Assembly: GCA_030824515.1 (NCBI GenBank)
Contig: JAVBXN010000017.1
Span: forward strand, 1 to 64,000
Length of the DNA: 64,000 nucleotides
Direction: 5' to 3'
From: Pelobacter sp.
GTDB lineage: Bacteria; Desulfobacterota; Desulfuromonadia; Geobacterales; Pseudopelobacteraceae
This document shows, piece by piece, positions 49,807-64,000 of this stretch (positions are counted from its first letter, which is position 1; each line of letters starts with the position of its first letter). The notes beneath the pieces are model-generated. The model was given only the letters and a program-made list of their open reading frames with translations. It did no database searches and was not told where the DNA came from. Made by a program: the position numbers and the translations under genes.

Positions 49807-51681
49807 ATGCGTATCAATCCAGAATTTCCGGTATATGATCAGGGTTGCCGATTGGCAGCCCTCTTCTTTTTCATGCTCCTGTTGAGCTTCCTTAACGGTT
49901 GCGCCGCGGATAAAGACAGCTCCAGCTGTGTTGCCTGCCACGGCGGAATCGAGCATGTTTCGGCTACGCATGGCGACTGTGTTTCCTGCCACGGCGGTGA
50001 TCCCGGAACGGACGACAAGACCAGGAGTCACGCTACAATGCGTGGTAGCGAAAACCCGTCGTCGCCGGAAACATGGGAAGAGAGCTGTGGCGGCTGCCAT
50101 CGTTACCAGCTGGAGCGGGTCAAGACCACGATCATGCAGACCAATGCCGGCATGATCCGCAATGTCCAGCTGACCTGGGAGGGGGAGGACGGCCGCGATT
50201 ATTCCGTCCGTGGCGGCAAAACCTTCGATTCCTCAGGCAATTCGCTGGAACTGCAGCCGGTGGAGGATCTGGACAATCTCTCCGGAGAGCTGTACCGCAA
50301 GTTCTGCTCACGCTGCCATATCGGGATCAGCAATGCCGTCTCCTATGGCGCTGCCCATGCATCCGGCTGCGCCGCCTGTCATTTCCCCTGGAACGACACC
50401 GCAACCTATCAGGGTGGCGATAAAAGCATGCGGGGGAGGGCCGGCCACTCCGCCAGCCACAAGATGGACGCGCTGCCCGATACCATGGTCTGCACCCGTT
50501 GCCATAACCGCAGCGGCCGGATCGCCTTTTCGTACCAGGGGCTGTACGATGGCAATAACAGCCTGGTCCCGACCAGGGGGGGCGAGGGCGGGCCGTTCAT
50601 GACCAGCGGCGCCCGCAATCTGACCAGCATCACAGCGGATATCCACTTCGCGGCCGGGATGGAGTGCATCGACTGCCACACCTCGCGGGACGTAATGGGA
50701 GACGGTTTTGCCTACCGCAACATGTACCTGCAGACGGAAGTCACCTGCGAGGATTGCCACGGCAGCGCCACCGAACCGCCGCACTACCGGGAGATAACCC
50801 GCGAGAACGACGAGGTGCTGCGGGAGTCAAAATCGTATAAAATTCCTGCCAAATCCGGGATGCGCATGATCCAGACCGCCCGGGGGCGCAGCTATTCCAA
50901 CGTATTTTACAGGGACGGCGCCATCTGGCTGCAGGGCAAGCGCAGCGGCAAGCTGCATCGCAGCAAGGTCATTACCGGAACACCGGAACACACGATTGTC
51001 GGGCATGGCCGCCTGGAATGCCATGCCTGCCATTCACGAACCTCGGTGCAGTGTTATGGCTGTCACACCCGCTACGACAAGGGCCAACCGGGGATGGATT
51101 TTATCAAGGATGAAGAAACAGCGGGCGCTTTCAGCGAGACCGAAGACTATCGCATGCTGTACCCTTTCCCGTTGGCGCTCAACCAGCGCGGCCGTATTTC
51201 GCCGGTGACGCCCGGTTGCCAGACCTTTGTCACGGTGGCCGAGGAGGACGGAACTCTCTCCAAGACAGAATACATCGCTAAATTCAAGGGAAAGCAGCAG
51301 CTGCGCTTTGCGCCGTTCTACTCGCACAACACCGGCAAAAAGGCGATCGGCTGTGCCGAATGCCATGGCAATCCGGCCTTCCTGGGGTTTGGCCAGCATG
51401 TGGTCGATGGCAACAACATCAGGGGCACCCTGTTGTGCGAGCGTTCCGACAGCAAACCCCTGGACGGTTTTCTGACAATGAACAAGGGCAAGGTCAAGGC
51501 CTTTTCAGCTATTACCAGGGAAAAGGCCCGGCCGCTGAACGGAGCCGAAGTGAAACGGGCGCTGGCGGTCAACCTGTGCCTGCCTTGCCATGGCCTGGCC
51601 AGGGATCCCATCTACCGGAAAGGACTGGATCATCGTGCGCTTGATGATGCTTTACATCGCCGCAGCCTTTCTGGCCGCTAG
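49807..51681 (+). CDS. Dodecaheme c-type cytochrome lipoprotein
   Basis: A 624-residue exported protein. The signal peptide ends in a lipobox-like FLNGC, so it is probably a lipoprotein. I count twelve CXXCH heme sites: CVACH, CVSCH, CGGCH, CSRCH, CAACH, CTRCH, CIDCH, CEDCH, CHACH, CYGCH, CAECH, CLPCH. It would conduct electrons at the outer face of the inner membrane or at the outer membrane. The next cytochrome gene overlaps its 3' end by 47 bases and a Rieske gene overlaps that, so all three are translated together. The family name is not recognised. Confidence 0.92.
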   Translation: MRINPEFPVYDQGCRLAALFFFMLLLSFLNGCAADKDSSSCVACHGGIEHVSATHGDCVSCHGGDPGTDDKTRSHATMRGSENPSSPETWEESCGGCHRYQLERVKTTIMQTNAGMIRNVQLTWEGEDGRDYSVRGGKTFDSSGNSLELQPVEDLDNLSGELYRKFCSRCHIGISNAVSYGAAHASGCAACHFPWNDTATYQGGDKSMRGRAGHSASHKMDALPDTMVCTRCHNRSGRIAFSYQGLYDGNNSLVPTRGGEGGPFMTSGARNLTSITADIHFAAGMECIDCHTSRDVMGDGFAYRNMYLQTEVTCEDCHGSATEPPHYREITRENDEVLRESKSYKIPAKSGMRMIQTARGRSYSNVFYRDGAIWLQGKRSGKLHRSKVITGTPEHTIVGHGRLECHACHSRTSVQCYGCHTRYDKGQPGMDFIKDEETAGAFSETEDYRMLYPFPLALNQRGRISPVTPGCQTFVTVAEEDGTLSKTEYIAKFKGKQQLRFAPFYSHNTGKKAIGCAECHGNPAFLGFGQHVVDGNNIRGTLLCERSDSKPLDGFLTMNKGKVKAFSAITREKARPLNGAEVKRALAVNLCLPCHGLARDPIYRKGLDHRALDDALHRRSLSGR

Positions 51682-52891
51682 CCTGCTTTCAAGCGACGGT
51701 CTGGCCGCCGAGAACTGCACGGTCTGCCACAGGTTGTCGCTTGGTGGTATTCATGCCGCGCTGCCCTGCCTCTCCTGTCACATTAGTGAAGGCAAGAGCG
51801 AGGCAAGCCCGGCTTCTGCCAGGAACCGCGCCGTTGGCTGTCGTGGCTGCCATGTCGGGCACGAGCGCATCTTTGACCATGCCATGTCCAGGCGTGACGG
51901 AGAGCGTCGTTTCGTCGAGCGCAGTTACGCCAAGGTGGATTCCGGTTTCTGGGAGAAGAATTGCAATTCCTGCCATGTACAGGACTGTCTCGATTGCCAC
52001 GGTTCCGGGCATGCGCTGGCAAAGCCGAAGGTCGCCGATTGCCAGAGCTGCCATCGCGGCTACTATACCGGTTGGGATTACTCGGGACGGGCGCCGCGCG
52101 AGGACAATATGCGTTACCAGCGCGGCATCGCTGTCAATGGCGAGACCTTCCTGAAGATGTTGCCGGACGTGCATTACCGGGCCGGACTCACCTGCGGCGC
52201 CTGCCACTCGATGAACAGCCTGGCGCAGGGGAAAAAGTCGTCCAAGGGGTGCCGCGACTGCCACAAGCCGGACCCGAAGGTTGTCGAACACCGCATTCCG
52301 GCCCACATGGAGCGACTGGAGTGCTATGCCTGCCATTCGTCCTGGGCGCCCCAGGAGTACGGCACCTTCTTCCTCCGTTTTCGTGATTCGGCCCTGAAAG
52401 AGGATTTTGATCTGAAAGCGCTGGAAAATCCGGAGTATCTGCGCAGCGCCTACCTGAAGAGGCAGGACGCTCCGCCGCTGGGGGTGAATGCCGCCGGCCG
52501 GATCAGCCCGATCCGCCCGATGTTCATCGCCTACTATACCGATATCCAGTCGGCCAGAAACGGCGGGCCGGAGAATACTCTGCTGGCCGCCGAATGGCGG
52601 GCCTGGTTTCCGCATACGATCCAGCGCGGCAGCGTGACCTGCGAGGGGTGTCACGACAACCCGGCCCGCTTCCTGCTGGAGCCGGAAACGCAGCGCATCC
52701 ATCAACTCGGCCGTGACGGACTGGGGCTGGAGTCCTTTTGGCTCCAGCAGGGTCAGCGCGCGGTCAACGGCGATTTCATCGCGGCCGGACGCTACCTGCG
52801 CATGAGCAGCAAAAGCCCGGCCTATACAAAGGCGTACATCGAAAAATGGAAAACGTTCCTCAATCGCGTCGAAGCTTCATCACGACCCTAG
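51635..52891 (+). CDS. Decaheme c-type cytochrome
   Basis: About 418 residues with a Sec signal peptide (LYIAAAFLAASLLSSDGLAA) and ten CXXCH sites: CTVCH, CLSCH, CRGCH, CNSCH, CLDCH, CQSCH, CGACH, CRDCH, CYACH, CEGCH. The start is uncertain: GTG at 51635 has AAAGGA upstream, ATG at 51644 or 51647 is also possible. The gene overlaps the end of the dodecaheme gene and itself overlaps the Rieske gene by 46 bases. Together they look like a periplasmic electron-transfer module. Confidence 0.9.
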   Translation: MRLMMLYIAAAFLAASLLSSDGLAAENCTVCHRLSLGGIHAALPCLSCHISEGKSEASPASARNRAVGCRGCHVGHERIFDHAMSRRDGERRFVERSYAKVDSGFWEKNCNSCHVQDCLDCHGSGHALAKPKVADCQSCHRGYYTGWDYSGRAPREDNMRYQRGIAVNGETFLKMLPDVHYRAGLTCGACHSMNSLAQGKKSSKGCRDCHKPDPKVVEHRIPAHMERLECYACHSSWAPQEYGTFFLRFRDSALKEDFDLKALENPEYLRSAYLKRQDAPPLGVNAAGRISPIRPMFIAYYTDIQSARNGGPENTLLAAEWRAWFPHTIQRGSVTCEGCHDNPARFLLEPETQRIHQLGRDGLGLESFWLQQGQRAVNGDFIAAGRYLRMSSKSPAYTKAYIEKWKTFLNRVEASSRP

Positions 52892-53244
52892 CTCTTTTGC
52901 TCGGATCTGCCGGCCTGCTCTGGCGTTATCTGACGCCGCGCACTGTGAAACGCCGCAAGGTGGCGGTGCGGGTGGCCCGGAGCGAAATTCCGCCCCGGGG
53001 AGCGCTGGTCTACCGCGAAGCGCGGGTGGTTTTGCTGCGCGAAGCTGAGACGATATATGCTCTGGACCTTGTCTGCACCCATCTGGGGTGTACCGTCACG
53101 GTAACATCCGACGGGCTTTCCTGCCCCTGCCACGGCAGCCGTTTCGACCGTCAGGGAAAGGTTCTGCAGGGTCCAGCCGATAGGCCGCTACGGAGGCTGG
53201 AGCTTGTCGAGGCCGATGGAATCGTGGAAGTGCTGGAAGGGTGA
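52846..53244 (+). CDS. Rieske [2Fe-2S] protein with Tat-type anchor
   Basis: A 132-residue protein. The N-terminal SRRSFIT followed by a hydrophobic stretch is a twin-arginine signal or anchor, usual for Rieske proteins. The cluster ligands are in CTHLGC and CPCHGS (two Cys, two His, with the additional disulfide Cys pair). It carries electrons from a quinol site to c-type cytochromes in bc-type complexes. No cytochrome b gene is adjacent; the partners here are two multiheme cytochromes. ATG at 52846 lies inside the end of the decaheme gene. Confidence 0.9.
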   Translation: MENVPQSRRSFITTLALLLGSAGLLWRYLTPRTVKRRKVAVRVARSEIPPRGALVYREARVVLLREAETIYALDLVCTHLGCTVTVTSDGLSCPCHGSRFDRQGKVLQGPADRPLRRLELVEADGIVEVLEG

Positions 53245-53398: not shown

Positions 53399-56029
53399 TC
53401 ATTCTTTGCTTTCGAGAGACTGAATCCGCTTCCTGGTGTTGATCGTACCCGGATGGTTCGCGCCGAGCACCCGCTCCAGGTCGGGCAAGAGCTTGCGAAA
53501 GAGTCGCAGAGCTTCGGGCGTGTCGCCGCTTAGTTCAGTGCTGAAGGCAATACACTTACGGGTTATGAGCGTATCTGGATGATCCGCGCCGAGCACACGC
53601 TCCTGAACGGGTAAAAGCTCTTGAAAGAGCCGGGTCGCTTCGCGCGGATAGCCGCATTCTCTGGTCCAGTCGGCGATATTGCTGCGGGTTTTGAGAGTGT
53701 AGGGGTGTTCCGCGCCGAATACCCTCACACGATCGGGTAAGAGTTTTTTAAAGAGCTTCAACGCTTTGTGCGGATTGCCGCTCTTACCGGTCCATAGTGC
53801 AATGTTGCTGCGGGTCTTGAGAATGTCGGGATGGTCCGCGCCAAGAATCCGCGTCCGATCAGGCAAGAGTTTTTGTAAGAGCTTCAGCGCCTCGCTTACG
53901 TTCCCTGTTTCACCGGTCCAGTGGGCGATGTTGCTGCGAGTTATGAGAATGTCGGGATGGTCCGTGCCAAGAATCTGTGTCTGGTCATGCAAAAGCTCTT
54001 GAAAGAGCTTCAGAGCATCGTTTACTTTGAATGTCTCCCCGGTCCAGGTGGCGATGTCGTTGCGGGTTTTTAACGTGTAAGTGTGTTCCGCGCCGAACAC
54101 TCTTGTCAGCTCTGGCAGCAGTTCCATGGAGATCTGCAGAGCCTTGCGATAGTCGCCTGACTTTCCGGTGTATGAGGCTATGTTGTAGCGGGTGGCGAGG
54201 GTGTCCGGATGGTTTGGGCCGAGCAGCAGCTCCTGATTGGGCTGAAGTTTATGAAAAAGCCGCAGAGCCTCGCGGTAGTTGCCGCGCTCACCTTCGAAAC
54301 GGGCTATCCTGGCTGCAAGCACGGCCTCTTCGGCAGAGTGGGGTTCCGGTGTCAAATGCCGTGCATGGGGGAGTTCGAATTCCAGCCCGGCGTGTTTTCG
54401 GATGTCGGTCACATCCTCCAACAGGCTGACAAGCGCTGTGACCGCAGCAGCTCGCACAGTTCTGCGCAGCGCAATTGCATCATTTTCAGCCGGATCGCCG
54501 TGAATCATGGTGTAGCGTACCAGGGCGTGAACTGAGAGCGTGTCGCCGGTCGCCTCCCCCAGCGAGACGGTGGCCAGTGAGTGGGTTTCAAGCTGGTTGA
54601 TCGCCTTGGCAAAACAGGCCTCTGAGCCGGCTTCGTCCAGCAGCAAGGCCCGACCCAGGGCCGCCTTGGCCAGCCTGAACGAAATGGGGGCGCCGCCGTG
54701 CAGCTCTCCGGCAAGACGCAGAAGATTCAATCCTTCCTCTCCGAGCAGTCGCACGCTCTGTACAAGGGTGACTACGATGCTCTTCTCATGACCTCCGGGA
54801 AGCTGTCCCGCCAGTCCGGCGATCAGAGCACCCAGCGGATCGGTTTGCGTCTGTGCCAGATCGGCCCGCATCGCCGCGAAACTCCTGGATTTGAGCAGGA
54901 AGTGTCCGGTCACATCCAGCGCCAGGGCGTGGCGTCCGAGATCCTCGGCAAGGCCTAGGGCGTCGTGCCGTTCCAGATCGGACCGGGGCTTGCGTTCCTG
55001 TGTAAGCAGTTCAAAGGCCGGTTCCTGCTCCAGCACATCGATCTCAACCGTAACGCCGATCCCATCGTACTCCTTGCAGCGGGTGGTGACCAGGGTGCGA
55101 CCGTTGGCGCCGGGCGCAAACCATCCCGGCAGGCCCTGCTCCTGGTCCAGGCCAGGAGGTAAGTCGTCAACAATCCAGAGATACGGCTCTAAGTCAGCAA
55201 GTTTCTGCACGAGTAGATGGTAGATAACCCGGAAATCAAGTCCGGTGATGTCAATGTCCAGATTGATCGCCAGCCCTTCGATCTGTTGTTTCCTTACTCC
55301 TTCGCGCCTTTCGGGATCCATCGGTTTATGGGGATCGAAGCCGTAGGCGCGCAACCAGTAGATACCGCCGGGGTAAGCCGCGCTGAAACGCCTGGCATAC
55401 TCGATTGCCAGCAGGCTCTTGCCCACGCCGCCCAATCCGGTGAGCTGCGCCACGACAGCGGGGTTCTCGCAGTCGGAAATCCCGACCGGGTTAAGGGCGG
55501 TGTGGATGCGCCACAATTCGCGCAGTCGGCCAACGAAGCGTGTCGAGCCCGGTTGTGCGGAAGGGCGCCATGCCGGCAGCTTGAACTGGCGCAGTGCGGC
55601 AAAATCATCGTCCAGCCCGGCCAGCTTCTCGCCCAGCAGCCGAATGCAGGCGTCCAGGCTAGTCTCGTCCTTTGGCGCGGTCAGATAGTTCTGCCGCTCC
55701 ACGTCGCCCAGGGCAATATGGGCCACGTTCTCCAGGGGGTTGAGGATCAGGATACGCGACAGAACGTCGCGGGTCAGCCGCTGTGTGCAGATCCAGGCGG
55801 CGGTCAACTCTTTCTGGCAGTAGCTTGATTGGGCGTATTCAGGGGAATACCAGGCAAGCAGCGCGTGGGAGCGGGCCAGGCCATCACGGATACGGGCCGG
55901 GAAAGCATCGAGCGGATCGATCTCCTCGCGGTCGATCCATATATCGACCCCCGCTTTGGCCAGGGCTTCGGCAAACGGATAAACCTGCTCTTTATTCTTG
56001 CGTGAATAGCTGATGAACAGCTTGGCCAT
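53399..56029 (-). CDS. TIR-NB-ARC-TPR protein (STAND-type, candidate immune sensor)
   Basis: An 876-residue protein. The TIR domain (~1-135) starts KLFISYSRKNKEQVYPFAEAL and keeps the catalytic-type Glu in SSYCQKELTAAW. An NB-ARC/STAND ATPase follows (~165-500) with the P-loop GLGGVGKS near 198-205 and LWIVDD as Walker B. The C-terminal part is a chain of 42-residue TPR repeats (see repeat). Such proteins sense a ligand with their repeats, oligomerise via the ATPase and activate the TIR, which usually degrades NAD or makes a signalling nucleotide. ATG at 56029 has AGAGG eight bases upstream; an ATG at 56035 is too close to it. It is the last of several codirectional genes. Confidence 0.9.
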   Translation of the reverse strand: MAKLFISYSRKNKEQVYPFAEALAKAGVDIWIDREEIDPLDAFPARIRDGLARSHALLAWYSPEYAQSSYCQKELTAAWICTQRLTRDVLSRILILNPLENVAHIALGDVERQNYLTAPKDETSLDACIRLLGEKLAGLDDDFAALRQFKLPAWRPSAQPGSTRFVGRLRELWRIHTALNPVGISDCENPAVVAQLTGLGGVGKSLLAIEYARRFSAAYPGGIYWLRAYGFDPHKPMDPERREGVRKQQIEGLAINLDIDITGLDFRVIYHLLVQKLADLEPYLWIVDDLPPGLDQEQGLPGWFAPGANGRTLVTTRCKEYDGIGVTVEIDVLEQEPAFELLTQERKPRSDLERHDALGLAEDLGRHALALDVTGHFLLKSRSFAAMRADLAQTQTDPLGALIAGLAGQLPGGHEKSIVVTLVQSVRLLGEEGLNLLRLAGELHGGAPISFRLAKAALGRALLLDEAGSEACFAKAINQLETHSLATVSLGEATGDTLSVHALVRYTMIHGDPAENDAIALRRTVRAAAVTALVSLLEDVTDIRKHAGLEFELPHARHLTPEPHSAEEAVLAARIARFEGERGNYREALRLFHKLQPNQELLLGPNHPDTLATRYNIASYTGKSGDYRKALQISMELLPELTRVFGAEHTYTLKTRNDIATWTGETFKVNDALKLFQELLHDQTQILGTDHPDILITRSNIAHWTGETGNVSEALKLLQKLLPDRTRILGADHPDILKTRSNIALWTGKSGNPHKALKLFKKLLPDRVRVFGAEHPYTLKTRSNIADWTRECGYPREATRLFQELLPVQERVLGADHPDTLITRKCIAFSTELSGDTPEALRLFRKLLPDLERVLGANHPGTINTRKRIQSLESKE
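53402..54223 (-). repeat. Six exact 126-base TPR repeats plus a partial one
   Basis: Six consecutive 42-residue units of the form LGADHPDTL-TR-NIA-WTG-SG---EALKLF--LLP---RV, then a 22-residue partial unit at the C terminus. All six are exactly the same length. This is the kinesin-light-chain-like TPR type. Confidence 0.9.
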
Positions 56030-56088
56030 CTGCATGACCTCTCATTTTTTTCCGGCGATGTGCGCCTTGCAAATAAGGCCGCGCGCCG

Positions 56089-57456
56089 CTATCGGGCGCG
56101 TTCCCAGGTGATGTAACTTATTTTCATTACGCCGGGACTGGGGCCGACCGGCTCCCGGAGCTTGAAGGAGCCCAGGTTGCCGCGGCTGGTCCGGACGCAG
56201 GCGTAGTAGCTCTCCGCTATTCTCTGGATGGGGATGCGCCGTTCCGTCATCTTTACCTGGGAGCAGCTCTCGTAGGTGGTTTTCTCCCGTGTCAGGCCGA
56301 TGGCCGCCCCGTTCCTCGGCGTCAGGTAGCGCTCCGTCTCCGTCACCGCCTCGAACCAGAAATCCGCATCTCCGTTACGGACAATTTGGCCCGAATCCAG
56401 GTCGAACAGATAGGTCTGGTGAACCTCCAGGTTCCCCCTGGCGAGCACTTTTTGAGCCGCTGGCATATCACCTGACGTGTCGCCGGCAGCCGGTGGCGCG
56501 GATACCAGCAGGTCCACCGCCGTACCGCGTCTGGCCGTGGTGCCTGCTTTGAGTTTCTGGTTGAGGACCATCCCGGGGGGAGTCTTGTCAGTCGCTCGAA
56601 GAGTCTCGGCCCCCGGTCGCAGTCCTGCCTCGGTCAGCAACTTCACTGCGCGTTCCAGCGGTTGCCGCACCACGTTCGGCACGGTGACAAGTCTGGGTGG
56701 GGCAGGTTCCTGTTGTGTGCCGTTCGCTGGCGCAGAATCCGTTGCCGCTATCTTTGGTTCCCGGTCGGTCGGGTGGGTGCTGCTTCCGGTAAAAGTGGAG
56801 CCGGTGGTGGTTGTGACCTGTGGCGATCCCTTGAACAGCCTGACAAAGCTGTTTCGGAACGACTCGACGCCGGTCAGCAGTCCCGTCAGCGCCAGCAGCA
56901 GTGCGGTGACGGAGCTGATCAGCCAGGTAAGCCGGTTTTTTTGCACACCGGACAACGGGTTTGTGTTGGTGCCGCCCGTGGGGACCGTTCCTGCCGTTCC
57001 TAGAATCCGCCCCAGGGTCTCGACCAGTTGCGCCAGGTCCGTGTCCCAGTGGGTATCGTTGATCTCGATGGCATGGCGGCGGGCCAGCAGCTTCAGATCC
57101 TCGGGGAGGTCCGCCTCTCCTGGCATGTCCGCATCCTGGACCAGCACAGGAATCACCCGGATGTTTCGCTTCAGGGCCGTGCCGACTTCAAGGCGGATGA
57201 AGTCCGCAGTGTCGTCCAGTCGCCGCCGGCCGGCCGCGTCGCTGCAGTCAAGCCACTTCCGGCCGATAATAACCAGAAGCACCGCGCAGGAACCCACGGC
57301 CAGGTCGATGGTCTCTACGAAATCAACTCCCGGCTCGATGGCGGAGACATCCATGAAGACCCGCTCCCTGCCGAAGCGTTCCCGCAAGCGGTCGTAGATC
57401 CGACCGGCGTGTCCGGCGCTTTCTTCACGGCGGTAGCTGATGAATATCCCTTCCAT
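56089..57456 (-). CDS. TIR-TM-PASTA protein with novel C-terminal domain
   Basis: A 455-residue protein. The TIR domain (~1-150) starts GIFISYRREESAGHAGRIYDRL and has Glu90 in FIRLEVGTAL at the catalytic position. One TM helix at ~176-196 is followed by a Thr/Pro-rich linker, a PASTA domain at ~257-319 (VPNVVRQPLERAVKLLTEAGLRPG, in parts) and a ~115-residue C-terminal domain (LFDLDSGQIVRNGDADFWFEA) with no family I know. The topology would place the TIR in the cytosol and PASTA outside. PASTA binds peptidoglycan or beta-lactam-like ligands in kinases, so this may be a surface sensor with a TIR output. It lies 33 bases after the next TIR gene. Confidence 0.87.
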   Translation of the reverse strand: MEGIFISYRREESAGHAGRIYDRLRERFGRERVFMDVSAIEPGVDFVETIDLAVGSCAVLLVIIGRKWLDCSDAAGRRRLDDTADFIRLEVGTALKRNIRVIPVLVQDADMPGEADLPEDLKLLARRHAIEINDTHWDTDLAQLVETLGRILGTAGTVPTGGTNTNPLSGVQKNRLTWLISSVTALLLALTGLLTGVESFRNSFVRLFKGSPQVTTTTGSTFTGSSTHPTDREPKIAATDSAPANGTQQEPAPPRLVTVPNVVRQPLERAVKLLTEAGLRPGAETLRATDKTPPGMVLNQKLKAGTTARRGTAVDLLVSAPPAAGDTSGDMPAAQKVLARGNLEVHQTYLFDLDSGQIVRNGDADFWFEAVTETERYLTPRNGAAIGLTREKTTYESCSQVKMTERRIPIQRIAESYYACVRTSRGNLGSFKLREPVGPSPGVMKISYITWERAR

Positions 57457-57489: not shown

Positions 57490-58731
57490 TTAGCCCTTTC
57501 TACCGGACAACCACTCCAAAAGTCGAGCAATGAGCTTTACATTATCACCTCCGAATGCCTGGTGGCGCCCAAGCAGGTCCCATGAGCCAATCATCTGCAC
57601 CTCACCAGACCCGCAGAGGCCCTTCGGTGCTTCAACTGCCGCCGCGAGCCAGCCAGCCTGACTGTTTGTTTCAAAGGCGGTTCCGCCCGGCGTCGTCATG
57701 GTGCCATTACGATAGAGGACACTTTCCCGGCGAGGCCGATAGACTACATTGTCGCCGACGCGCAGCCACTCCACTCCTCCAGGCGCAACGCGAACCGTTT
57801 GCACATTTGCAAGCCGGATAGTCGTCAGTCCTTCTGTAAATGGATGAGGAACGCCTTTCGCAATGTCGAAATCGACGGGAATGTCGTACGGCTTCCTGTC
57901 TCCAAATCCTGGCGGGCCAACGATGTTGGCATCAGGGTCGATTCCAAAGTGATGGCTGAGTTCCGCCAAATTGGCGTCGTGGTGGCGATCACCAAGCTCG
58001 AAGCCAAGCAGCAGCAGGCGGCCACCCCTCCGTACCCATTCTACCGTCGCCGAAATTGTTTCCGGCTCAAGTTTGGCGCGCCAGGGACTGGAAAAGATTA
58101 AGCCCGAAAGCTTGTGAAGATCCGTTGACAGAAAAGGCCTTTCGTCCGCGAGAGTCTGAAAGCTCCAGTCACCTTCCAGCCCTGCGGGAAGCGAGTTTGC
58201 AAGAGAGAACAGTGACTGGCCTCCCCCGTCCCACTGGTTCTGCTGGTGACTAAGAACGATCCCTATCGCCTCAGACCTGGTTGGACGCTCGCTTTGAAGG
58301 TCATGAAACATCTGCTTTGGATCGAAACTGATTGCGGGTTGAAGTCCAAGCTTCAGGGCGAGCTGTTCCACAAGCAGCCTGCATGAATCGGGTGTGTCCA
58401 GTTCCAGGGCCTGGAAGATGTTCAGTGGGTCGGGTAGTCGATCCTTCCGTAATCCATGATGGCACACCGGTATCACCGGCAGATGTTTTGCCCAGCAACT
58501 GCCGCTTTCAAAATTTAGCCAGGGCCGGCGAATAGAACCCGGACTGCACAAGGTCAGCACCGCCTTTGCGCAACAGATGGCTTCGTCGATTTCCTTGAGC
58601 CACGCATCACCCAAATGGATATCAGTCGCGCTGACAAAGACATCCAAATCAGGCAGCGCGCTCTCAAGTGCTTTCTTAAGTGCCCGTGCTTCAGACGCCT
58701 CTTCTGATATGTGACTTAAAAAAACATGCAT
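57490..58731 (-). CDS. TIR protein with GATase/DUF4350-like C-terminal domain
   Basis: A 413-residue protein. The TIR domain (~1-140) starts MHVFLSHISEEASEARALKKAL and has Glu75 in the WLNFESG motif. Residues ~165-413 look like a class I glutamine-amidotransferase/ThuA-like Rossmann domain: IGIVLSHQQNQWDGGGQSLFSLA, then LHKLSGLIFSS, VEWVRRGGRLLLLGFELGDRHHDANLAEL (in parts) and GVEWLRVGDNVVYRPRRES. This domain usually senses or hydrolyses a small ligand. GGAG precedes the ATG with a six-base spacer. It is codirectional with the CHAT-type gene. Confidence 0.82.
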   Translation of the reverse strand: MHVFLSHISEEASEARALKKALESALPDLDVFVSATDIHLGDAWLKEIDEAICCAKAVLTLCSPGSIRRPWLNFESGSCWAKHLPVIPVCHHGLRKDRLPDPLNIFQALELDTPDSCRLLVEQLALKLGLQPAISFDPKQMFHDLQSERPTRSEAIGIVLSHQQNQWDGGGQSLFSLANSLPAGLEGDWSFQTLADERPFLSTDLHKLSGLIFSSPWRAKLEPETISATVEWVRRGGRLLLLGFELGDRHHDANLAELSHHFGIDPDANIVGPPGFGDRKPYDIPVDFDIAKGVPHPFTEGLTTIRLANVQTVRVAPGGVEWLRVGDNVVYRPRRESVLYRNGTMTTPGGTAFETNSQAGWLAAAVEAPKGLCGSGEVQMIGSWDLLGRHQAFGGDNVKLIARLLEWLSGRKG

Positions 58732-58927
58732 ACGTCACTCCGTGGGGGAAACCTGCCTTCATATTAGCCTTTTCGGTCCCCGTTCCCGCAAGGCCGGTAG
58801 GAGTGCCAAAGTGCCGCCACATGACCCCGACACAGATATCGTAATCACCGATTAGCCTGTTGATATTCTGCTGGCGGCGCCAACTCACGGGGTTACGTGG
58901 GCCTCCCGCCGCTATCAAGAGATTCAT
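58691..58927 (-). pseudogene. DUF4062-like fragment
   Basis: This 78-codon frame starts with an ATGA overlap at the end of the CHAT-type gene. Its first ~50 residues contain 'QNINRLIGDYDICVGVMW' followed by FGTPTGLAGTGTE, which resembles the central strand and GTPTG-XSGTE turn of DUF4062 proteins. The match is then lost, and the frame runs into the start region of the TIR gene. It looks like the remainder of a deleted gene, but translation as a short peptide is possible. Confidence 0.5.
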
Positions 58928-61900
58928 TCCCCCAGCGGCGCCAGCTGCTCCACGATTTCCCTCAACGCCGCGGCCTGCTGCTTGACCTCTTTCCGTTTAC
59001 TGCCGTCTGCAGCCATATCCGCCAGGAACTCCAGGTGATCGATCACTGAACGGAACTCACGCGGGCTTGCCCCGCGTGTTTTGGCATGTCGATATGCATC
59101 CACGACCGCCTGCTTCTGTTCATCAAGGGTGCTGCCTGCAAGCGCCTGAAGCAGATCGCATTCAGGTTTGACGACGCTGTTCCAGAAGCTCGGGTTCTGC
59201 CGGTCCTGTTCCTCCGCAAAGCCCCGCGCCTTTTCACACCACTCTCCGATCTTGGCCGGAGTAACATCCGCTTTCTCTCCGTACCAGCCCAGCAGGACTT
59301 CGGCGGCCAGCCAGTTGAGGAGCGGATAGGTTTCCAGCTTGTTGCGCTTCTCGTCGAACTTCTTTTCGTGCGCTTTCCGGTAATACTCAGCCATCTTCGA
59401 TAAGGCATCTTTCCGTTGAGTCCCTTGTGCAATCCAGGCCCGTCGTTTGTGGGCGCTTCCCATCAGGCTCAGGCGTTCTGAGGTCTCATTGAACTTTAAA
59501 AGTCTGCCTAGATCATCGATTGCCTCCTGAATTAGCTGCTCTGGGGATGGTGTTCCGGTTGTTACGATCCCGCCGCGCAGCAACTCCACCGCCCAACGGC
59601 TTTTGAAGTTGGCCCGCTGCTCCACGATACGCATCGGATACTCGGCTTTATCACTAGCAATGGCCTTGTTCAGGTGCTCTATCGCCTTTTCGAATAGGTC
59701 GAGTTCACCAAAGGTTATCCCAAGGGCTGCCGCTACTTCTGGTCGTCCGAGCCAGCTCTCGTCCTTGTCCTTAACCGATTGCACGATCGCTTCCACCTTC
59801 TCCTTCTCTTTGTTGTAGAAGTAGACGCCAAGCCGGGCACGACTCGCCAGATTCTCCAGATCTGCTACTACCTGCATTGGCGAGTTCGGTTCACTCTTTT
59901 TGCCCTGATCGTCGGAAATTAGACAAAATTCTGGATCGCCGTAACATTGGTAGGCACCCCAAGTATTGGTGTTGTTATGCTGTAAGTAAGTTTCTTCGCG
60001 GGCGGCGCGCACTGCCTCGCCAAAATTGTCGCCGGCCAAAAGGTGACGGTAAAAGCTGATGGCAAATGTTTCGGCAGCGGAGTCGTCCACGGCCCAGCCG
60101 GCGGCTACGACGGCTTTTACTCCCATTCGGATGAATTGAGCCGCAATGTTGGCGGCGAGACGGTTGACGAACTTGGTGCCATCTGTCGCATTACCAGTGG
60201 CCACGCTTCCCAGGTGGCAGCAGTTAATGAAGACCAGTTCCGGCACCCAGCGCATCTGCTCCACGTCCCCCGACGTCAAGAAAACCTTGTCGCCGATGAC
60301 CATCCCTGAGACCTTCTTGGTTTGCGGTGGGGGAGTCTGTTCGCAGCACTCGCAGGGGGCAGGTATATTGATAGGAAGTTCTTCCTCATGCACTCCATGG
60401 CCGGCAAGGTGCAAAAGCCGGTAGCCGTCGGCATGGAGTCCCGCCAGGATCGCCCGTGCATCAGAACGGATCTGGCGGGTGACAGTGAAGCCGTTTTGCT
60501 GCAGGAAGTCGGCTACGGCCATGCACTCTTTGCGGGCACCTTCCAGGCTTGGGAACATACTGGCGGTATCTCCTGTTACGAGCGGGTCGCCCACCACGTA
60601 TACCTTGTTCTCCAAGGTGGTGGACGGCCGCTCGCGGAAGACCGCGGTCTTGAACTGGCGCAACAAACCGGAGGTGACGGCCACTGGTTGTTCGTGGTTG
60701 CTCCAACGGTCCTCCAACAGCTCCCATGGATAGCTACCAGACACCTCGTCCACCACCAGCACCCTGCTATACTGATTGCGAGTCAACTCCTTAAGTCGGT
60801 TGGGGTATAGCATTTCGAATAGGGCGTGTGTGACTTTAGGGTCGCGGCGGGTATCGGCAATGGATTGCCGGATCAAGTCTTCTGCCAGTCTTAACTGACC
60901 GGTCACCAGGCTTTCTTCGGCCCGGGCCCGGTCGGTGAGAGCAATGAAGCGGAGTTCGTCTTTCTTCTTGTCATGGATGATCTCCAGTCTGTGCCACCAG
61001 TAGGGGGCCTCTTCGAACTGGATCCTTCGTTGCCCACCTTGACCGGTTTTCATGCTACCCTCATGCCAGTAGAAGAAATCAGATAGTTCTCCATCCAGGA
61101 GAATTCGCTTCAACTCGATCGTCGCGAGGATTGCCTTATCCTGTAATAGCTCCATAAAATCTACCGCATTGATAAGGACCTTGTTGCTCAGCTTTTGGAT
61201 TTCGAGGATCCGATAAGCGTCTTTTATCCCTCTCAAGATTGCCACGAGGGAGTCGTGAATAGTCAGATTGCTAAAGCCTGTGCCGATTAGTAGGCAAGTG
61301 ATCTTCGCGGAACGAGGTACCCCGGAAAGGGTATCGAACCTTTCATCCTGACATTCAGCTACATGGATCGCGTACTGCAAAGACGCCAGGGTGATGGCCG
61401 CCTGCAGGCCGCCTGGAGACAGTTCGCCGACCTGTCCCAGTCCGATTACAATGGCTCCGGCCGGTTTGCCATAACGGTCGGGGTTAAGCACCACTTCGCA
61501 AGTCCCAATATAGCCTGGATAGAGCCACAGTCGGTGCCGCTCCCGCAGTCGTCCATCGAGGGCCATGTCCAGGTAGTCCTCGGCGCCAACAATGGGATCG
61601 CCTGCGTAGTGGCCGACGATGACCGGATGTCGTGCGTAGCCCAGGTCACCATGGGTGATTGAAACTGTAATCTTCGGCAGACGAACCTTAGTTTTCTTTC
61701 TCTTTCTGCTGCTGCCGGCTCCCAGAATGCTGCCGGCCAGTTCCCGCTCGTCAGGAAGGGTCGGAGGTGTTTCACGGGCCATAATCGTCCGCTGCTCCAG
61801 TGCCGCAGCCCTGACTCCGGCAGGTGGCGAAGTGGCAAGGCGGGTCGTGGTTCCGTTCTGCAGAAGTTCCAGATAGGCCGGGAATGCTGCCTCGTGGGCT

Positions 61901-64000
61901 GGCAGGTCGCCATGTTCCACATCCGGCAGATACCAGGTCCTGACGTTCTGCGGAATACCGGTATCCCAGGGCACCTTGCCGTCTCCGCGGGCGGTGGCTT
62001 CGAAGACGATCACATGACGGTCCGGCTGAATGTGTTCCGGGTCCTGTTCCGTTTCCAGGCACCAGGCGATGGGAGTCTCTCTGGCCTGGCCGGCGACATA
62101 GAGGGTGCGAACGGGGTCTAGAGGCGTCGCCAGGATCGTCTCCCAGGTGCGCCGCGCCTGTTGCAGTTCGTTAAGATTCGGCAGGGGTGACTTCATCAGC
62201 TGCATGTCGTCGTCATTTTTCTGAAACTCCTGCCAGATATCCATGTTGAAAAACTGAAAATCGTTGTCGATGGGTAGCAGCTCCAGCACTCCGGGGAAGC
62301 GGACGATAAGTTCCAGCAGCTCGGCCCAGTTGCGGGTGAAGTCCAGCAGCGCCAGTTGCTGGAGTGTCGTGGTATAACCGGACAGCAGCCGGACGATTTC
62401 ATAAGAGCCGCCGTTGGGGGTGCCTAGCATGACCAGCCGTGCATCGACGTGGGCTGTCATGCGTTGCCATACCTCGGGCTTCCGGGCGATCATGGCCCGC
62501 GCCACCAGGCCTCCCATTGAATGGGCCAGGATCTGCACCGGTTGGTTTGTTCGTCGTTGTTGGATCTCGTCCAGCTTGGCGTTGACCTGCTTCGCTAGGG
62601 CCTCTCCCGCTTTCAGGATCGAGCGGCGCCAGTCATAGGGGAAGGGGACTACCTCGTGTGTTTCCCGCAGCCGGTCTATAAGTTCGCCGTAATATTCCTC
62701 GAAGGGTTCCTTGGGTGTCACATCCCGGTTAATCTCCAGTTTCCCGAACTTACCCAGCATCAGATTGAGCTTGCCGAGCCAGATTCTTTCGCTGCCCACC
62801 TCCAGGGTACTTCCCATGATGCCGGGAAGCACGAAGACCACCGGCAGGTGGCCCTGTGGAGCACGGCTCAGGATAGCCCGTGCCGGTTCCTTCTCCGGGG
62901 CCAGAGTTATGGGGCTGAAACCGGCATCCGTACCATCGCTTCGCAGCAGGCCCGCAGCCAGCATCCGCACCGTCACTTCATTGTTGAAATAGCTGAAATG
63001 ATTAACATCGTTTCCGCTGTTCAGATAAAAGCGGCCGCCATCCGCCCGCTTCAGCCCGCCGAACATGGCACCGGTGTTGACCACGATATCGCACTCGTCC
63101 TCAAAAAACCGGTCCAGCATCAGCTCCTTGAGCCGGCCGAAGATGCCTTTTCCTTCCGTATCGCCGGAGATGACCGATAGGTCGGACTTGACCTGCAGCG
63201 CCGGGTAATTGAGAATTCGCACCAGCGGCGAGCCGGGCATCATCGCCTCCAGCCCCGGTAGCTGGCTGGGGTCGTCATGTTCGGCGATCAGGGCGATCAG
63301 CAGCTGCAGCGGGAAGTTATAGGGCAGGACCAGGTCGTTCAGTAGTTTCACCACCGACAGCCAGCGGTCAAGTTTCCCGGAAGCCAGGGTCGTCCCGCGG
63401 GACGGGCTGGCAACCCGCACGAAGCGGTCCACGGTGACCTTCTTCTTTTCCAGTGTCTCAATCAACTTGCGCAGCTGCGCCGCCTGTTCCTTTATTGCTT
63501 GGTCCTGTTTGCCCGGCTTGCCCAACCCGGCCGCCAGCTCGAAGATTTCCCCGATGCGGGCTGGCGACAGCGGTTCGGTCCCCTGAACCTGTTGTCCTAG
63601 ACAGAGCAGGTCCCCCACCAGCCCGCCCCGCGAGTGGCTCACCAGGTGCAGCCGCACTCCGTCCGGCATTTTATCGACCAGGTCCAAGGCATTCTTGATC
63701 GGGCTCTCGGTCAGGGTGTAATGCTCCCAGGCGTAGGCCTGGCCGTAACGGCGGGCAAACTGGCCGCGGGCATCGCTGCCGGCACTGTTTTTCGCGTCCC
63801 AGAGCCCCTTGAAGCTCCCCTCGAAGCTGGACATGGTGCCGTGCAGGAAGAGCAGGATTGGACCCTCGGTTTTTAATTCTTTGGTGAAGGTCATTTTGAA
63901 ATCACCTTCAAGATCCACCCGGTAGAGGCCCGGCTTGTTTTCCTTGCTTCCCTTGAGCTGGTGCAGCTCCACCGCGCGCCCCACGGAACCGGCGATCTTG
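58924..64000 (-). CDS. Giant double alpha/beta-hydrolase-CHAT protease protein (5' end beyond window)
   Basis: At least 1691 residues; the frame is open to the right edge, so the start is unknown. Numbering from the first in-frame GTG (63984): first lipase-like alpha/beta domain at ~40-345 with HSRGG (Ser118); second, LCAT-like, at ~378-700 with PGIMGS and AHSMGG (Ser489); an unassigned region ~765-1060; a CHAT caspase-like domain at ~1075-1355 with catalytic-type His1196 (LHLAGHG) and Cys1255/1256 (INCCHLG); and a helical TPR-like tail to the end. CHAT proteases are common effectors in bacterial cell-death and defence systems. The combination with two lipase-like domains is unusual. It is the first of the codirectional group with three TIR genes. 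Confidence 0.87.
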   Translation of the reverse strand, partial: KIAGSVGRAVELHQLKGSKENKPGLYRVDLEGDFKMTFTKELKTEGPILLFLHGTMSSFEGSFKGLWDAKNSAGSDARGQFARRYGQAYAWEHYTLTESPIKNALDLVDKMPDGVRLHLVSHSRGGLVGDLLCLGQQVQGTEPLSPARIGEIFELAAGLGKPGKQDQAIKEQAAQLRKLIETLEKKKVTVDRFVRVASPSRGTTLASGKLDRWLSVVKLLNDLVLPYNFPLQLLIALIAEHDDPSQLPGLEAMMPGSPLVRILNYPALQVKSDLSVISGDTEGKGIFGRLKELMLDRFFEDECDIVVNTGAMFGGLKRADGGRFYLNSGNDVNHFSYFNNEVTVRMLAAGLLRSDGTDAGFSPITLAPEKEPARAILSRAPQGHLPVVFVLPGIMGSTLEVGSERIWLGKLNLMLGKFGKLEINRDVTPKEPFEEYYGELIDRLRETHEVVPFPYDWRRSILKAGEALAKQVNAKLDEIQQRRTNQPVQILAHSMGGLVARAMIARKPEVWQRMTAHVDARLVMLGTPNGGSYEIVRLLSGYTTTLQQLALLDFTRNWAELLELIVRFPGVLELLPIDNDFQFFNMDIWQEFQKNDDDMQLMKSPLPNLNELQQARRTWETILATPLDPVRTLYVAGQARETPIAWCLETEQDPEHIQPDRHVIVFEATARGDGKVPWDTGIPQNVRTWYLPDVEHGDLPAHEAAFPAYLELLQNGTTTRLATSPPAGVRAAALEQRTIMARETPPTLPDERELAGSILGAGSSRKRKKTKVRLPKITVSITHGDLGYARHPVIVGHYAGDPIVGAEDYLDMALDGRLRERHRLWLYPGYIGTCEVVLNPDRYGKPAGAIVIGLGQVGELSPGGLQAAITLASLQYAIHVAECQDERFDTLSGVPRSAKITCLLIGTGFSNLTIHDSLVAILRGIKDAYRILEIQKLSNKVLINAVDFMELLQDKAILATIELKRILLDGELSDFFYWHEGSMKTGQGGQRRIQFEEAPYWWHRLEIIHDKKKDELRFIALTDRARAEESLVTGQLRLAEDLIRQSIADTRRDPKVTHALFEMLYPNRLKELTRNQYSRVLVVDEVSGSYPWELLEDRWSNHEQPVAVTSGLLRQFKTAVFRERPSTTLENKVYVVGDPLVTGDTASMFPSLEGARKECMAVADFLQQNGFTVTRQIRSDARAILAGLHADGYRLLHLAGHGVHEEELPINIPAPCECCEQTPPPQTKKVSGMVIGDKVFLTSGDVEQMRWVPELVFINCCHLGSVATGNATDGTKFVNRLAANIAAQFIRMGVKAVVAAGWAVDDSAAETFAISFYRHLLAGDNFGEAVRAAREETYLQHNNTNTWGAYQCYGDPEFCLISDDQGKKSEPNSPMQVVADLENLASRARLGVYFYNKEKEKVEAIVQSVKDKDESWLGRPEVAAALGITFGELDLFEKAIEHLNKAIASDKAEYPMRIVEQRANFKSRWAVELLRGGIVTTGTPSPEQLIQEAIDDLGRLLKFNETSERLSLMGSAHKRRAWIAQGTQRKDALSKMAEYYRKAHEKKFDEKRNKLETYPLLNWLAAEVLLGWYGEKADVTPAKIGEWCEKARGFAEEQDRQNPSFWNSVVKPECDLLQALAGSTLDEQKQAVVDAYRHAKTRGASPREFRSVIDHLEFLADMAADGSKRKEVKQQAAALREIVEQLAPLGE

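Follow-up and report, generated by a model that had tools for sequence, protein, structure and literature searches.

In Thoeris, a SLOG domain reads the product of the TIR protein, according to the abstract of PMC11204291. A 2020 paper (PMC7159879) treats a transmembrane (TM) segment with PASTA, PEGA, or OmpA domains as effector domains of iSTAND systems, possibly touching the wall. Apart from it, we found no paper that mentions TIR and PASTA domains together, and none describing the TIR-TM-PASTA layout turned up in a literature search that covered few subscription papers.

Here, we describe a protein of this layout encoded in the window, that is, the whole 64,000-nucleotide stretch of Pelobacter sp. 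DNA that was analyzed (genome G000). We propose, with a probability of roughly 0.4, that it is a membrane-bound, SARM1-like TIR enzyme whose wall-facing ectodomain serves as a receptor for the state of the envelope within a SLOG/TPR-S conflict island.

Domain layout and predicted topology

The minus strand from 57456 to 56089 is a single 455-aa ORF from ATG to stop, with AAGGAG at ribosome-binding distance ahead of the ATG as read in the sequence; the plus strand of this interval is interrupted by stops. The preliminary description does not give the strand. The preliminary description had proposed a TIR domain, one TM helix, and a PASTA domain, and this layout was borne out by Pfam and hydropathy (Table 1). 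TIR_2 scored 49.9 bits (cutoff, 28; E, 5.5e-13) and PASTA 49.8 bits (gathering cutoff, 23.2; E, 3.4e-13), and the single hydrophobic segment past the TIR has a mean Kyte-Doolittle value of 2.03. An AlphaFold2 model built with 7 sequences (mean pLDDT, 56) was good over the TIR and PASTA and poor (pLDDT <50) over residues 155 to 253 and 324 to 455.

Table 1. Features of the TIR-PASTA gene and its neighbors; positions are those of the window unless a contig handle is given
Feature	Position	Strand	Basis
Whole gene, TIR-TM-PASTA-CTD, 455 aa	56089..57456	-	ORF, Pfam, alignment A1, dN/dS
TIR_2 domain, residues 4-145, SARM1-like fold (modeled)	57022..57447	-	Pfam, Foldseek, VIA-align, phmmer
Glu90, candidate catalytic residue, paired with the catalytic Glu of SARM1 (presumably Glu642)	57187..57189	-	A1, A2, phmmer, VIA-align
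Predicted TM helix core, residues 179-197	56866..56922	-	Hydropathy; low-confidence model helix 175-195
Thr/Ser/Pro-rich linker, residues 198-253	56698..56865	-	Sequence; pLDDT <50; dN/dS
PASTA domain, residues 257-319	56500..56688	-	Pfam; PDB relatives
C-terminal domain (CTD), residues 331-455	56092..56466	-	Unassigned by Pfam and PDB; model pLDDT <50
Cys398, invariant in 6/6 Geobacterales-type sequences of A1	56263..56265	-	Alignment
Cys420, invariant in 6/6 Geobacterales-type sequences	56197..56199	-	Alignment
SLOG-type protein P0002, ~10 kb upstream	C49:67609-68283	-	
Upstream neighbor, DUF7379 + LCAT hydrolase-type + CHAT + TPR-S, 1870 aa	58924..64000, on to C49:64536	-	Pfam
Upstream neighbor, TIR_2 protein	57490..58731	-	Pfam; weak PADLOC TIR-TM match
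Downstream neighbor, TIR + STAND-like ATPase + TPR repeats	53399..56035	-	Sub-threshold AAA_16/NB-ARC matches

The nearest solved fold to the modeled TIR is that of the SARM1 TIR (Foldseek, 9.1e-9); SARM1 is an NAD hydrolase that brings about the death of damaged nerve fibers. VIA-align likewise placed SARM1 first (Z, 18.5 over 136 residues; 2.0 Å), followed by other SARM1 entries, and phmmer with an E limit of 10 hit no PDB sequences other than those of SARM1 (7 in number; best, 7.6e-4). For the whole model, the Foldseek and VIA-align lists were filled by TIR chains, so that the non-TIR parts were barely tested by structure search. The phmmer alignment pairs Glu90 with the Glu of SARM1 DWVHKE, which we take to be Glu642 from chain counting and the title of PDB entry 7cm7 (E642A). 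Glu90, correctly numbered in the preliminary description, is invariant in alignments A1 and A2, and a Glu occupies the catalytic place (DxxxxE) in all 54 distinct TIR ORFs of the subfamily (47 by motif script and the other 7 by eye in the script output). Fold and catalytic Glu together point to a TIR of the SARM1-like type, in agreement with the enzyme-type TIR suggested earlier, with NAD cleavage as its putative activity.

Many animal TIRs act by assembly, and two more TIR genes flank this one, so that the window encodes three consecutive TIR proteins. A non-enzymatic TIR that just assembles with the other TIRs of the island would suit this arrangement; the uniformly retained glutamate and the likeness to SARM1 argue against such a scaffold, which we consider highly improbable.

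The preliminary description's PASTA match was also upheld by a family profile, which hit the extracellular PASTA domains of PrkC (4.2e-21), PknB (1.9e-9), and StkP (0.0064) in the PDB. Membership in the PASTA Ser/Thr kinases (Stk1/PknB) was rejected, with no Pfam kinase match and 30.7 bits to NCBIfam PknB_PASTA_kin against a cutoff of 450. The PASTA model matches two places in the genome of the window, the TIR gene and a penicillin-binding-protein-like (FtsI/PBP-type) ORF adjoining a MurE-like ORF, both of these ORFs being named by reading and not by profile.

The C-terminal domain, which the preliminary description had left unassigned, is indeed without a family: the window protein has no Pfam match there, with DUF6169 at E 0.15 for only 1 of 5 members. 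Comparison with the PDB gave chance-level matches only (best, 0.069), and AlphaFold2 with 7 sequences did not fold the domain. Neither G237 nor the frameshifted copy of G146 is included in the CTD alignment (A5). Among 271 genomes of the class, the sole outside relative found for the domain is a weak one in G139 (8.9e-7; pairwise hhalign, 96%), and the G139 domain has further relatives in Sinorhizobium and Streptomyces. This distantly CTD-related "FDLxxG...D.WWE" domain (L100:2480-3502, L101:3303-4862, and L099; Streptomyces, Sinorhizobium, and G139 proteins) is doubled in Sinorhizobium.

We predict a single-pass inner-membrane protein with PASTA and CTD outside and the TIR inside. Several features indirectly favor an outside ectodomain: there is one helix, a leaderless TIR precedes it, PASTA has its customary position behind a TM segment, and the invariant CTD cysteine pair, Cys398 and Cys420, provides the only cysteines after the helix in 6/6 Geobacterales-type sequences. 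The four-PASTA proteins of G277 and G1039 have a different C-end with four clustered cysteines. Lys/Arg counts beside the helix (2 before and 3 after in the window protein; 2 to 5 before and 3 after in Geobacterales-type proteins) do not favor N-in, and the charge rule points to neither orientation. Cysteines of the Cys398/Cys420 type are absent from three distant CTD relatives, and the proteins carrying such relatives have no visible signal peptide; because of the latter, an outside location cannot be concluded from the CTD.

Distribution, phylogeny, and selection

A search for homologues of the same layout, which the preliminary description had suggested as a check, found TIR-TM-PASTA at nine loci, in 7/277 genomes of the class and 2/399 of a betaproteobacterial order; these and the following genome counts are lower bounds because only part of the candidates per genome were scored. 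In the class, at least 18 genomes have a match at 1e-20, among them the 7 with TIR plus PASTA/CTD (G000, G211, G224, G237, G247, G145, and G146). The phylum search (395 genomes) gave at least 3 matches at 1e-40, with the layout in G000 and G145 only, and the order of Sulfurimicrobium (399 genomes) at least 22 at 1e-40, with PASTA in 2, G277 and G1039. The relatives are 44 to 91% identical over the aligned protein (A1). PASTA is present once in G000 and G211, twice in G224, G237, G247, and G145, and four times in G277 and G1039; G146 has two copies, with the frame broken after the second begins. The break in this locus (L038) may be an assembly error or decay.

In a TIR tree of 54 rows with midpoint root, the nine PASTA proteins form one side of a branch with support of 91/73, which is below the starred level; the branch appeared in 92% of 200 bootstrap trees and in 0/500 shuffles. 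By this tree, the TIRs of the nine proteins form one clade with moderate confidence. A hydrophobic segment follows the TIR in 47/54 distinct subfamily ORFs and PASTA is found in 9/54, in a set biased toward TM proteins because the queries included the TM region, and with a PASTA profile built from the TIR-TM-PASTA family itself; thus, PASTA is one of several parts found behind a membrane TIR. L055, one of the 7 ORFs without a TM call, resembles L007 and L054, which have the segment.

All 20 dN/dS comparisons (G000 versus five relatives for four parts; Geobacterales-type pairs) lie between 0.09 and 0.45, and by this measure, TIR, linker, PASTA, and CTD are all under purifying selection. These values and the identities among relatives mark the layout as more than a chance arrangement. 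The TM/linker value is highest in 3/5 pairs and second in 2/5; PASTA exceeds it versus G211 and G237. These patterns bear on whether PASTA/CTD could merely hold the TIR at the membrane or wall, with a cytoplasmic sensor (TPR-S, STAND/NLR-like, or other) activating it and the TIR being one of several killing outputs. A PASTA number ranging from 1 to 4 and a C-end that differs between the two taxa would suit a tether under loose constraint; conversely, in most pairs, constraint on the CTD matches that on the TIR (dN/dS, 0.09 to 0.34).

No phage relatives were found in 50,697 phage records, and viral contigs gave no confirmed match to the TIR-PASTA alignment, to the SLOG protein, or to the CTD; on these grounds, a phage origin was rejected. 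These searches also gave no link to phage, which the preliminary description had named as a possible cause of the envelope damage. Among plasmids, 6 records have TIR-only matches, with coverage up to 33%.

Gene neighborhoods of the family

The order in G000, all on the minus strand, is SLOG-type P0002, P0003, C11 peptidase, hydrolase-CHAT-TPR-S, TIR, the TIR-PASTA gene, and TIR-STAND-like-TPR. P0003 is of the PG_binding_1/M15 type, with two Pfam matches just below cutoff (24.4 bits against 25 and 21.5 against 23); in its G224 relative, M15 is above cutoff (25.9) and PG_binding_1 below. An opposite-strand ORF lies between the P0002 and P0003 orthologues in G211, and probably in G000 as well, so that the genes may not share an operon or transcript. 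A search of the window's genome for the patatin seen in the relatives, run without a positive control, gave no hit.

TPR-S, for which another 2020 paper, a survey, is reportedly the source, scored 52.5 bits versus 27.6 in the G000 cluster. It also occurs at G224, G247, and G1039 and was not seen among the scanned ORFs (a subset) of the G277, G145, and G146 loci; the scan left out G211 and G237. The 1870-aa protein that carries it (window 58924-64000 plus L033:2-1537) has only ~41% identity with the hydrolase-CHAT proteins found in relatives, and its place is on the opposite side of the TIR genes; the G224 and G247 relatives have an extra terminal TIR. The C-terminal half of the TIR_2 neighbor has weak DUF4350/GIFT matches only, and tblastn found no relative of this protein in the other loci. 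The TIR-STAND-like-TPR protein, with 270.5 bits to FxSxx_TPR versus a cutoff of 300, is kept beside TIR-PASTA in G211 and G237 at 92 to 94% identity. Two cytochrome-type genes and a Rieske protein gene (window 49807-53244) lie beside the island and are 93 to 98% identical beside the G237 island.

Neighborhoods of relatives were examined by tblastn with 12 partner proteins and by ORF reading. G211 has SLOG, patatin, PGB-M15, C11, TIR-PASTA, TIR-NLR, and hydrolase-CHAT, the last cut by the contig end. The G224 order is SLOG, patatin, PGB-M15, C11, SIR2, nSTAND1, CAP12-TIR, TIR-PASTA, and hydrolase-CHAT-TPR-S-TIR, and that of G247 is PGB-M15, C11, alpha-amylase (L037:15966-17849), SIR2, nSTAND1, SLOG, patatin, TIR-PASTA, and hydrolase-CHAT-TPR-S-TIR, with SLOG-patatin directly upstream of TIR-PASTA. 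An amylase-like ORF is also found in L109 (G233). TIR-PASTA of G237 stands at a contig end, where the upstream side is not visible, and is followed by TIR-NLR and hydrolase-CHAT. G277 has SLOG directly upstream of TIR-4xPASTA and then caspase; G1039 has a TPR-S protein ending in SLOG (this domain 56% identical to P0002), TIR, TIR-4xPASTA, and a caspase-like ORF named by its likeness to that of G277.

A SLOG-fold gene is thus near 6/9 TIR-TM-PASTA loci, and at 7/9 loci, the gene is surrounded by genes with a predicted killing function (CHAT/hydrolase/TPR-S, patatin, SIR2, C11, caspase, NLR-like, and peptidoglycan hydrolase). As judged from predicted gene content, the neighborhood is supported as a conflict-type island. 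None of the 12 partner proteins was found around the G145 gene (~9 kb on each side) or the G146 gene (9 kb on one side); in both genomes, TIR-PASTA adjoins an rsgA-like gene (Pfam in G146 only), with the ORFs overlapping. This pairing, free of the killing genes searched for, would fit a regulator of envelope stress or growth, not of defense, in which the TIR product would tune the physiology of the cell itself upon wall disturbance. The predicted killing and conflict genes at the other seven loci argue against it, and we regard it as improbable.

In G145 and G146, moreover, none of the other island genes tested accompanies the protein, which argues against the mere tether. In favor of the tether, TPR-S or STAND-type proteins are encoded beside the gene in G000, G224, G247, and G1039, and PMC7159879 lists PASTA, PEGA, and OmpA preceded by a TM segment as iSTAND effector domains. 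We view the tether as rather unlikely, although the receptor role is favored over it only narrowly.

P0002 has no Pfam family match. Its G211 orthologue, 86% identical, was modeled by AlphaFold2 with three sequences (pLDDT, 77.5; pTM, 0.77), and the best PDB match of the model is YpsA (Foldseek, 1.3e-5, the sole one below 0.001; Z, 16.6 over 167 residues, 3.5 Å), followed by DprA, ShosA, and LOG proteins. P0002 is therefore predicted to have a SLOG/LOG-type Rossmann fold. The ThsA SLOG is not among the listed structure matches of this orthologue, which excludes nothing. At 1e-15, the SLOG domain is found in at least 11/271 class genomes. In G256 and G192, it makes up the C-terminal end of a TPR-S protein, and patatin comes next; G203 has a CHAP-PG_binding_1 protein, SLOG, patatin, and a TIR-TM protein with a different ectodomain; and on a Rhizobium leguminosarum plasmid, TPR-S, SLATT, muramidase, patatin, and TPR-S genes come after the SLOG domain.

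The starts of the peptidoglycan hydrolases have hydropathy values of at most 0.97 (M15 types), 1.15 (muramidase), and -0.63 (CHAP, with GTG at the ORF 5' end taken as the start codon and the true start unsure), compared with 2.35 for two secreted cytochromes; by hydropathy, none of the hydrolases tested has a signal-peptide-like start. Three unrelated types of this kind are found in SLOG/patatin clusters of different bacteria (L033:2932-3747, L041:6651-7559, and L091:9092-9943).

Proposed function and comparison with known systems

Domains, Glu90, the single helix, conservation, gene neighborhood, and the SLOG fold were obtained by computation; the membrane orientation, the NADase activity, the ligand and trigger, and the messenger with its target are inferred, as follows. 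The cytoplasmic TIR would cleave NAD in the manner of SARM1, with PASTA and CTD held outside the membrane against peptidoglycan. A change in the wall or envelope seen by the ectodomain would be signaled through the helix, probably by clustering, and turn the TIR on; NAD loss or an ADP-ribose-type messenger would then act in the conflict-system island. The nearby SLOG-fold protein is the most likely messenger reader, and the candidate executioners are CHAT/hydrolase/TPR-S, patatin, C11, caspase, or peptidoglycan hydrolase.

A damage receptor could also drive programmed lysis: PASTA/CTD would read the wall, an NAD-derived messenger made by the TIR would be read by SLOG, and two-step lysis as in phages would follow, in which patatin (or hydrolase-CHAT where patatin is missing) opens the membrane for a leaderless peptidoglycan hydrolase. 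In Geobacter relatives, this hydrolase, encoded in the same cluster, would be of the M15 type; in G203 it would be CHAP and in Rhizobium a muramidase. We hold this scheme to be very doubtful.

If, as in the envelope-state receptor that we favor, the ectodomain gates the TIR, this would be a one-protein bacterial membrane receptor that converts wall state into an NAD-based death or alarm signal. A comparable plan has so far been tied to PASTA kinases, in growth control, and to animal TIR receptors, in immunity. The gating question is directly testable, given the close match to the SARM1 fold and the different ectodomains attached to a single TIR subfamily.

Thoeris membership was rejected in a comparison centered on the SIR2-SLOG effector: the SLOG gene is separate, no SIR2 is fused in G000, an SIR2_2 gene is found only in G224 and G247, and NCBIfam ThcB4 scored 37.9 bits versus a cutoff of 220. 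PADLOC matches to PD-T4-6 (1e-8, over the PASTA part) and ThsB (1.9e-7, over 60 TIR residues) cover single domains and were not taken as membership. No MoxR, vWA, or iSTAND genes were found among the neighbors scanned with Pfam.

The locus shares features with several known systems. In Thoeris (ThsB TIR plus ThsA SIR2-SLOG), a TIR likewise occurs near a SLOG-fold protein, as at six of our loci; here, however, the TIR is predicted to be membrane bound with an ectodomain, and SLOG is separate or fused to TPR-S and not to SIR2. The PASTA, PEGA, or OmpA proteins of the iSTAND MoxR-vWA systems similarly combine, within a conflict system, a TM segment with a peptidoglycan-associating domain behind it; section 20 of PMC7159879 sets TM-PASTA in MoxR-vWA-iSTAND systems, with no TIR-TM-PASTA protein among those described. 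With the PASTA kinases PrkC, PknB, and StkP, the window protein shares homologous PASTA and the plan of cytoplasmic signaling domain, TM segment, and extracytoplasmic PASTA (predicted here), but it has a TIR in place of the kinase, fewer PASTA copies, and an extra CTD. SARM1, the nearest solved TIR by fold and sequence and with the catalytic Glu in common, has ARM and SAM, both absent from the window protein, which has TM, PASTA, and CTD instead. SARM1 is under allosteric control by NMN and NAD, for which no counterpart was seen in the window protein. Finally, Toll-like receptors have the same plan of ectodomain, one TM segment, and cytoplasmic TIR (predicted here), but their chain order is reversed, their ectodomain is unrelated, and the TIR of the window protein is of the enzyme type, so the likeness is one of plan only.
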